Shown piece by piece: positions 20,913-22,648 of a stretch of DNA of 51,362 bases. The stretch is taken from assembly GCA_009773765.1 (NCBI GenBank), contig WTWZ01000043.1, positions 1 to 51,362 on the forward strand, read 5' to 3'. The notes beneath the pieces were generated by a model. It was not told the DNA's origin and did no database searches. It saw nothing but the letters and a program-made list of their open reading frames with translations. Every line of letters starts with the position of its first letter. Positions within the stretch are counted from its first letter, which is position 1. The DNA is from Prolixibacteraceae bacterium. GTDB taxonomy: Bacteria; Bacteroidota; Bacteroidia; Bacteroidales; Prolixibacteraceae. Made by a program: the position numbers and the translations under genes.

Positions 20913-22648
20913 ATGGAAAACTTTGTTGTATCGGCGCGAAAATACAGGCCAGATACTTTTCAGACTGTAGTTGCACAGGATTCGATAACCAGCACGTTAA
21001 AAAATGCCATTAAAAACAGCCAGTTGGCTCATGCTTACCTGTTTTGCGGGCCTCGGGGTGTTGGGAAAACAACCTGCGCGCGTATTTTTGCGAAAACAAT
21101 CAACTGCACCAATTTGTCGGCCGAAGAAGAAGCCTGTAACCAATGCGATTCATGCAAAGCTTTTAATACAAGCCGTTCGTTTAATATACACGAACTTGAT
21201 GCTGCATCAAACAACTCGGTTGACGATATCCGGAATTTAACCGACCAGGTTCGTATTCCGCCGCAAATGGGAAGGTACAGTGTGTATATCATTGATGAGG
21301 TACACATGCTTTCTCCATCGGCGTTTAACGCTTTTTTGAAAACACTGGAAGAGCCGCCAAAACACGCCATTTTTATTTTGGCCACCACCGAAAAACATAA
21401 AATAATACCAACCATTTTATCACGGTGCCAGATTTTTGATTTTAATCGGATTAGTGTTTCCGATATTGCCGGTTACCTTGAATTTGTTGCAAAAAAAGAA
21501 GGTATCAATGTTGAACCCGAAGGGCTGAACGTGATTGCACAAAAAGCTGATGGCGCAATGCGCGACGCACTCTCCATCTTCGACCAGATAGTCAGTTTCT
21601 CGGGCAGGAGAATAACTTACCTCGATGTTATTGCCAACCTGAATGTACTGGATTATGACTATTATTTTAAGCTGACCGATCAGTTTATGAAAAACGATGT
21701 ACCCGAAGTATTGCTGACATTTAATGATATCCTGAACCATGGTTTCGACGGGCATCATTTTATAACCGGACTAAGCTGTCACCTCCGCGATTTGATGGTG
21801 TGCCGCAATGCTGAAACCGTGCAATTACTTGAAGTTGGGGGCGAAATTAAAGGGCGCTACAGGGAACAGGCAAAGGTAGCCGATAGCAGCTTTTTGCTTG
21901 AAGCGTTGCAAATCAGCAATGAATGCGATTTGCAGTACAAAATGAGCATGAATAAAAGGCTGCTGGTAGAGTTGGCATTAATAAGGATAGCACAGCTCAC
22001 CTTAAAAAAAAAATAGCTGACCCATCACAGCCGAAAGATTTTTTGGAACCCATTTTCACAAATCAAACCCTTCCTGCAGCAAAAACAGACGCTCCCGCTC
22101 GTCAGGTTATACAGCCGCCTGCAAAGCCCGCCGCCCCTGCCGGTGATGTTGAAATAAGAAAAATAGCACGGCGCAACCTCAGTAACCTCAGTTCCCCTTC
22201 TATTAAAGATGCACTTGAAGGTAAGCTGAAAGACAAACAACTCACGGCCAGGGAACAGCATCAAATGTATGCTAAAGATGGGGAAAAGGAAGATTTTACA
22301 ACAGAGAAACTCAAATTAACATGGGAAGCATTTTTAACAAGGCTGAATGACCGGCCAAACCTCCAGTCAACACTTTCGACCTTACCCGGGTTAAAAGAAG
22401 ATTATCAGTTAGTTTTAGAAATAGAAAACACAGTTCAGGAGGATTTAATCAGCACTATAAAACCCGAGTTGGTTTCATGGCTTCGAAAGGAACTTAAAAA
22501 TTCAAAGATTCAGTTAACTACCATAATTACGGAAAAAGTAAAAGGCCGCATTATTTATTCCGATGCTGAAAAATATGAAGAGTTGTTAAAGGAGAATCCA
22601 AGCCTGGGTTTACTCCGTCAGAAGTTAAACCTCGATTTTGGGCATTAG
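20913..22648 (+). CDS. dnaX: DNA polymerase III gamma/tau subunit, interrupted by a -1 shift at an A10 run
   Basis: Clamp-loader ATPase subunit. The 5' frame (20913-22016, 367 residues) holds the AAA+ core: ARKYRPDTFQTVVAQD, Walker A in GPRGVGKTT, a zinc knuckle with CNQCDSCK, the IIDEVHMLS Walker B and the FILATTEKHKI sensor. It ends LTLKKK-TAG in a run of 10 A (22004-22013). The -1 frame is open through the run and continues KKKIADPSQPKDF to a stop at 22648, giving a tail of ~210 residues with the helical region expected of tau. Frameshifting or slippage would yield a ~578-residue tau and a ~367-residue gamma-like protein. The start is the ATG at 20913. TATCTTTG at 20880-20887 may be the -7 box. 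A genuine mutation or homopolymer error is not excluded. Confidence 0.9.

Follow-up and report, generated by a model that had tools for sequence, protein, structure and literature searches.

A two-frame dnaX gene in a Prolixibacteraceae genome, with tau probably made by recoding at a run of ten A

How is tau made from a dnaX gene whose core and tail are written in different reading frames? The question is raised by the dnaX locus of a Prolixibacteraceae bacterium (assembly GCA_009773765.1), which we analyzed within a window consisting of the whole 51,362-nt stretch of contig WTWZ01000043.1. A first-pass annotation, made from the sequence alone, had claimed that the core of DnaX ends LTLKKK-TAG inside a run of exactly ten A, that a tail of about 210 residues is open in the -1 frame to position 22648, and that slippage would yield a tau of about 578 residues, so that the short form would come from the zero frame and the long form from slippage.

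The dnaX locus in the window

This layout was borne out in each respect (Table 1). The zero frame starts at ATG and has exactly ten A within its LTLKKK-stop end, the -1 frame is open from ATA for 211 codons to a stop at 22646-22648, the joined product has 578 aa, and the frames of the core and the tail place the short form in the zero frame and the long form behind slippage.

Table 1. Features of dnaX, in positions of the window
Feature	Positions	Strand	Description
Short DnaX (gamma-like), zero frame	20913..22016	+	367 aa, AAA+ clamp-loader domains I-III
A10 run, putative slippage site	22004..22013	+	Zero frame TTA AAA AAA AAA TAG; A10 in 31/34 congeners
Zero-frame stop TAG	22014..22016	+	Adjoins the run and ends the short product
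Hidden stop TGA, third (+1) frame	22018..22020	+	Would end translation of mRNAs that gained two A or lost one
Tau tail, -1 frame	22013..22648	+	211 aa and stop; PRK14971 match, purifying selection in relatives

The core matched TIGR02397 with 441 bits and positions 1-365 of the 614 in PRK14971 with 730.6 bits, and its Pfam matches were to the delta2, ATPase lid and gamma3 domains. Because the match to gamma3 (gamma/tau domain III) ends at residue 362, the short product consists of just domains I-III. The tail matched positions 421-612 of PRK14971 with 84.3 bits, the model cut-off of 685 bits being one for the whole protein. No Pfam family was found in the tail at E 1, searches of the PDB with the tail as a single sequence and as a profile gave nothing credible, and in a comparison that bore on the fold of E. 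coli tau domain V, the tail had no Foldseek match at E 0.001 or better (VIA middling). In the 4.27-Mb, 118-contig genome only one place lies above the dnaX family cut-off, and it lies next to genes for a glutathione peroxidase and a pyridoxamine phosphate oxidase, which are on the minus strand.

A TTG-started open reading frame at 22043-22648 exists, from which the tail might be made as a separate protein after the short DnaX. However, the core and the tail match successive parts of one and the same model, the two parts are fused in 92 run-bearing genes of relatives, and a separate protein would have no need for a retained A-run; we give this reading almost no credence.

The junction run exceeds what chance would give: the 4.27-Mb genome has 45 overlapping A10 matches on both strands, or 34 distinct runs when merged by hand. 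One of them, on another contig (C64; L302:28-1209), falls in frame midway through a long open frame that encodes a peptide-N-glycosidase F C-terminal domain, and this gene is a second slippage candidate in the genome.

Conservation of the run in relatives

Thirty-six genomes of the same genus were searched and a tail match was obtained in 34. In 31 of these the junction carries A10 and the tail is written in the -1 frame; two of the others have A11 and read straight through, and the remaining one has A9 and a +1-frame tail. The position and direction of the frame change are kept, 32 of the 34 congeners being split. Among 22 other family members, 18 are split at A10, three are split at A11, and one has A11 in a single frame. 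The closest named relative among the best 80 of 594 matched stretches, a Sunxiuqinia sp. MAG with 80% core identity, has a dnaX that is likewise split at A10. One genome (G073) has two dnaX loci, with A9 and A10 at the junction, which may reflect a duplicate gene or mixed strains.

Silent positions beside the run are also conserved. In all 35 genes from the window and its genus the isoleucine codon after the run is ATA, compared to 313 of 1584 isoleucine codons elsewhere in the same genes, and the second tau-frame codon always ends in T (24 GCT, 9 GTT, 1 GAT and 1 AAT). These choices create the zero-frame TAG and the stop in the +1 frame. Of the 335 conserved degenerate codon columns only eight show no variation, including the ATA after the run and an ACC two codons before it. 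The letters 5' of the run (22002-22003 and upstream in the window) are ACCTT in 33 of the 35 genes and TCCTT in two; outside the family, the letters upstream of the run differ. Finally, dN was far below dS in the tails of congeners (e.g. 0.024 against 0.318 in close congener comparisons, dS to the window being saturated), and the tail of these relatives is under purifying selection.

A single genome could show the same picture through an error in sequencing or assembly, or if a private frameshift mutation had recently left a pseudogene. Homopolymers are prone to errors, and some of the odd run lengths, i.e., the A9 of a one-contig congener (G006) and the A11 of three family members with one frame, may be errors themselves. 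Nevertheless, the same A10 split recurs in the 31 congeners, 11 of which have assemblies of ten contigs or fewer (a list compiled by hand), and neither the silent conservation of ATA and ACC nor the purifying selection on congener tails fits an error or a private mutation. The first-pass annotation had suggested aligning close relatives for a conserved A-run, which was found; it had also held that sister genomes with another A count and one continuous frame would indicate an error or a private mutation, and such genomes amount to the two A11 congeners, beside the one with A9, so the split was not refuted. We therefore reject assembly error (very unlikely) and private mutation as a general account, and as an account of the window this reading is highly improbable. 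The split of dnaX at A10 is confirmed as real, and it is probably programmed.

The comparison was extended to 247 genes, made up of the window, 86 loci of 85 relatives, 80 contigs of named genomes, and 80 more loci at the level of class and phylum; no two of the genes share the same core-protein start. The 86 loci came from a tail search that matched 86 of 101 genomes, that of the window included (those without a match were two of the same genus, two of the same family and 11 of the same order), and G073 contributes two of them. The named contigs represent the 80 best among 594 matched stretches, and the 80 class and phylum loci were hand-picked, not random, among the matches listed (176 of 178 genomes matched). 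Three split genes without a run (L140, L168 and L253) were set aside, as they lie at contig ends or in vector-looking sequence. Run lengths were counted in a tightened junction window, since a looser one caught non-homologous downstream A10 or A7 in some read-through genes (e.g. in G100). Trees were built with FastTree from one protein and held 244 cores after the short rows L041, L086 and L088 were omitted. The genes are related, and the counts that follow are not counts of independent events.

The junction carries a run of A9 to A13 in 196 of the 247 genes: A10 in 146, A11 in 24, A9 in 22, and A12 and A13 in two each. Below A9, four genes, all read-through, have A7, none has A8, and 47 have no run of seven or more. 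Within the 439,684 coding nucleotides of these genes, runs of nine or more A number 196 at the junction versus seven elsewhere; since the junction run was picked for being the longest within about 140 nt, this count carries a degree of selection. Other homopolymers in the 247 genes were limited to two C9+ runs, with no T9+ run. In one gene (L108) a C11 run lies about 148 nt past the junction reference and in another (L239) a C9 run lies about 624 nt before it; both are inside dnaX coding sequence, rare and unexplained.

The reading frame at the junction is far less constant than the run. Among the 196 run-bearing genes, 92 read through, 99 need one extra A to reach tau, and five need two; A10 is the commonest length in both layouts (60 of the 92 read-through and 86 of the 104 split genes). 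Across the 194 run-bearing rows of the 244-core tree, the single or split label changed 27 times or more (mean of 64.4 and minimum of 54 in 60 shuffles), and it did so at least six times among the 36 run-bearing rows from assemblies of ten contigs or fewer, indicating that the run persists while the frame changes. Within the linker the run lies from 20 to 123 nt past a reference residue and, because it shifts place in this way, it appears to have arisen or moved more than once.

Three genes in the broader set depart from this pattern. Two Bacteroidales-type dnaX genes without an A-run (L190:2565-3397, and L122 in G061, on the minus strand with its core end near 1397) continue into an open tail in the +1 frame and resemble each other in sequence at the junction, and they may have a different recoding site or be MAG assembly errors. 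In a third (L202:2565-2700), the core stops at an in-frame TAG, beyond which a DnaX-like tail goes on in the same frame; this may be a read-through or an error.

Putative slippage at the junction, transcriptional or ribosomal

dnaX of the window is a two-frame gene, and we consider it likely that its tau is made by recoding at the A10 run through transcriptional slippage. RNA polymerase would slip on the run and produce a mixture of mRNAs with differing A counts. An mRNA with 10 A would yield the short, gamma-like DnaX ending at TAG, one with 11 A (or 8, or 14) would yield tau, and one with 12 or 9 A would yield a short form ending at the nearby TGA, and thus one gene could supply both clamp-loader subunits.

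This mechanism was weighed against programmed -1 ribosomal frameshifting, in which ribosomes would slip on A_AAA_AAA and make tau from mRNA that has 10 A throughout. Ribosomes could indeed slip as well, since each of the 196 run-bearing genes has the heptamer A_AAA_AAA in its zero frame, and 43 of them also have A_AAA_AAG. The latter is absent from the zero frame of the window. E. coli dnaX uses ribosomal frameshifting, as described in a 2016 review (PMC5009743), and two-frame dnaX genes with only 7 or 8 A are reported from Chlorobium (PMC3711429). Furthermore, the tail lies in the -1 frame in 99 of the 104 split genes; this 99:5 bias for one over two extra A fits -1 ribosomal slippage, whereas transcriptional slippage would need a bias to +1 insertion. 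However, ribosomal slippage should work with 7 or 8 A, and these lengths are missing from the split genes, and it could not serve the five genes that need two extra A.

Closure of the wrong frames extends to the +1 frame of the core, which -1 ribosomal slippage does not need closed. Both non-tau frames are closed within six codons of the run in 166 of the 196 run-bearing genes compared to 12.6% of control positions, and the +1 frame of the core is closed within six codons in 164 of 191 genes compared to 32.6%, these controls using one window setting. Outside the family both wrong frames are closed within six codons in 112 of 139 genes, and in all 35 genes of the window and its genus they are closed within two codons, the stops in the window being one and two codons from the run.

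Joint closure of the wrong frames also bears on DNA-level phase variation, in which replication would change the run length and switch tau on and off in the population. The genus does have runs of A9, A10 and A11, which speaks for switching, but a single length is common to the 31 congeners and both wrong frames are closed together in most run-bearing genes. Loss of a replicase subunit by switching would be costly. We consider phase variation very unlikely.

The first-pass annotation had noted two possible ribosomal stimulators, an AAGGAT (21983-21988, 16-21 nt upstream of the run) and a 4-bp stem (GCTG/CAGC, 22016-22019/22028-22031), and had judged them poor. Both are present, and each was found in only one of the 35 genes of the window and its genus, the window itself, which counts against ribosomal frameshifting. 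No Shine-Dalgarno-like site was found 4-20 nt upstream in the 57 genes of the window, genus and family, a range that excludes the AAGGAT of the window, and no convincing strong stem was found near the run. In the window, folding gave z-scores of -0.27 to -1.25 in three stretches with the stem and +0.31 in a fourth. Across 195 genes the downstream folding energy was slightly lower than that of their own control windows (mean z of -0.15; for 13% of genes the value fell within the lowest 5% of that gene's windows), and in the 57 genes of the window, genus and family there was a weak shift, with a mean z of -0.58. Such a slight excess is on the side of ribosomal frameshifting, and downstream folding may have a weak stimulatory effect. 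A terminator-like match on the minus strand (22032-22015) was rejected, as it uses the T10 and the stem confined to the window, and the region has two such matches versus 2.6 expected.

Altogether, transcriptional slippage is favored over -1 ribosomal frameshifting because the run outlasts the frame switches, both wrong frames close, and conserved stimulators were not found, in line with the earlier proposal that slippage by RNA polymerase is the likelier mode. The two run-length classes, split at nine A, support transcriptional slippage as well, since a length of nine A has been linked to it (PMC1088944). Also counted in its favor are switches by one A, the jump from A7 to A9, and the preference for A10 in every frame; counted against it are the 47 genes of 247 without any run. 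We think it unlikely that ribosomal frameshifting is the main route to tau, and slippage in transcription and on the ribosome may both contribute. The comparisons establish the sequence layout and its conservation, the retention of the run irrespective of frame, the closure of both wrong frames and the purifying selection on tails of relatives; the occurrence of slippage, its transcriptional mode, a ratio of products and a role for two DnaX forms are inferred.

For the phylum at large, we lean towards a broader reading in which the dnaX junction of much of the Bacteroidota serves as a slippage device indifferent to frame. Selection would hold about ten A and prevent either wrong frame from opening, while the encoded frame (read-through, one extra A or, rarely, two) would drift and would have switched dozens of times. 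RNA polymerase rather than the DNA would then set the ratio of tau to the short form, and the gain of one base in a gene of the replicase would be near-neutral. If this reading is true, Bacteroidota dnaX is a large natural experiment: its many gene pairs one A apart would allow the cost of slippage, the realignment spectrum of RNA polymerase and the need for two DnaX forms to be measured directly. Gene-calling pipelines are also liable to call a split dnaX broken or to drop its tau tail. A pattern of a run that is kept and a frame that is not was not found phylum-wide in the open-access literature searched, where no paper on dnaX slippage across the Bacteroidetes was found beyond PMC3711429 and PMC5009743.

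Comparison with known recoding systems

In E. coli, dnaX is described as undergoing -1 ribosomal frameshifting on A_AAA_AAG, where the stimulators are a Shine-Dalgarno site upstream and a stem-loop (PMC5009743, PMC3711429), and one Chlorobium is named in the review as having E. coli-like stimulators (PMC5009743). As in E. coli, two products would come from one gene in the window, but the heptamer is different, conserved stimulators were not found, and the order of the products is reversed. Shigella flexneri mxiE, in which slippage is reported to be needed for the longer product (PMC1088944), resembles the window in that the encoded frame gives the short product and one inserted base the long one; it differs in that the gene is unrelated and its run is of U.

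Thermus thermophilus dnaX uses transcriptional slippage on A9, with stops in both other frames (PMC1088944, PMC5009743). It shares with dnaX of the window a run of at least nine A between the short form and the tail, with near stops in both other frames. In Thermus, however, tau is in the zero frame and slippage leads to gamma, while the zero frame of the window leads to the short form. The Thermus layout, with tau in the genome-encoded frame, is that of the 92 read-through genes among the 196 run-bearing relatives, and not that of the window.

The closest precedent is that of Antonov et al. 2013 (PMC3711429), who found two-ORF dnaX in 12 genera, with 17 genes in all and ten A in nine of them. 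They called this a novel organization whose tau requires recoding, and they too inferred transcriptional realignment; the reversed order, in which the zero frame gives the short form, is also mentioned in the 2016 review (PMC5009743). The window agrees with those genes in having the core and the tail in different frames, the -1 direction and ten A at the junction, and some of the nine A10 genes may be close relatives of its dnaX. Fused-frame relatives that keep the run and a closed third frame are described here and are absent from the portion of their account available to us. Since the architecture was reported in 2013, dnaX of the window represents a further case of it.
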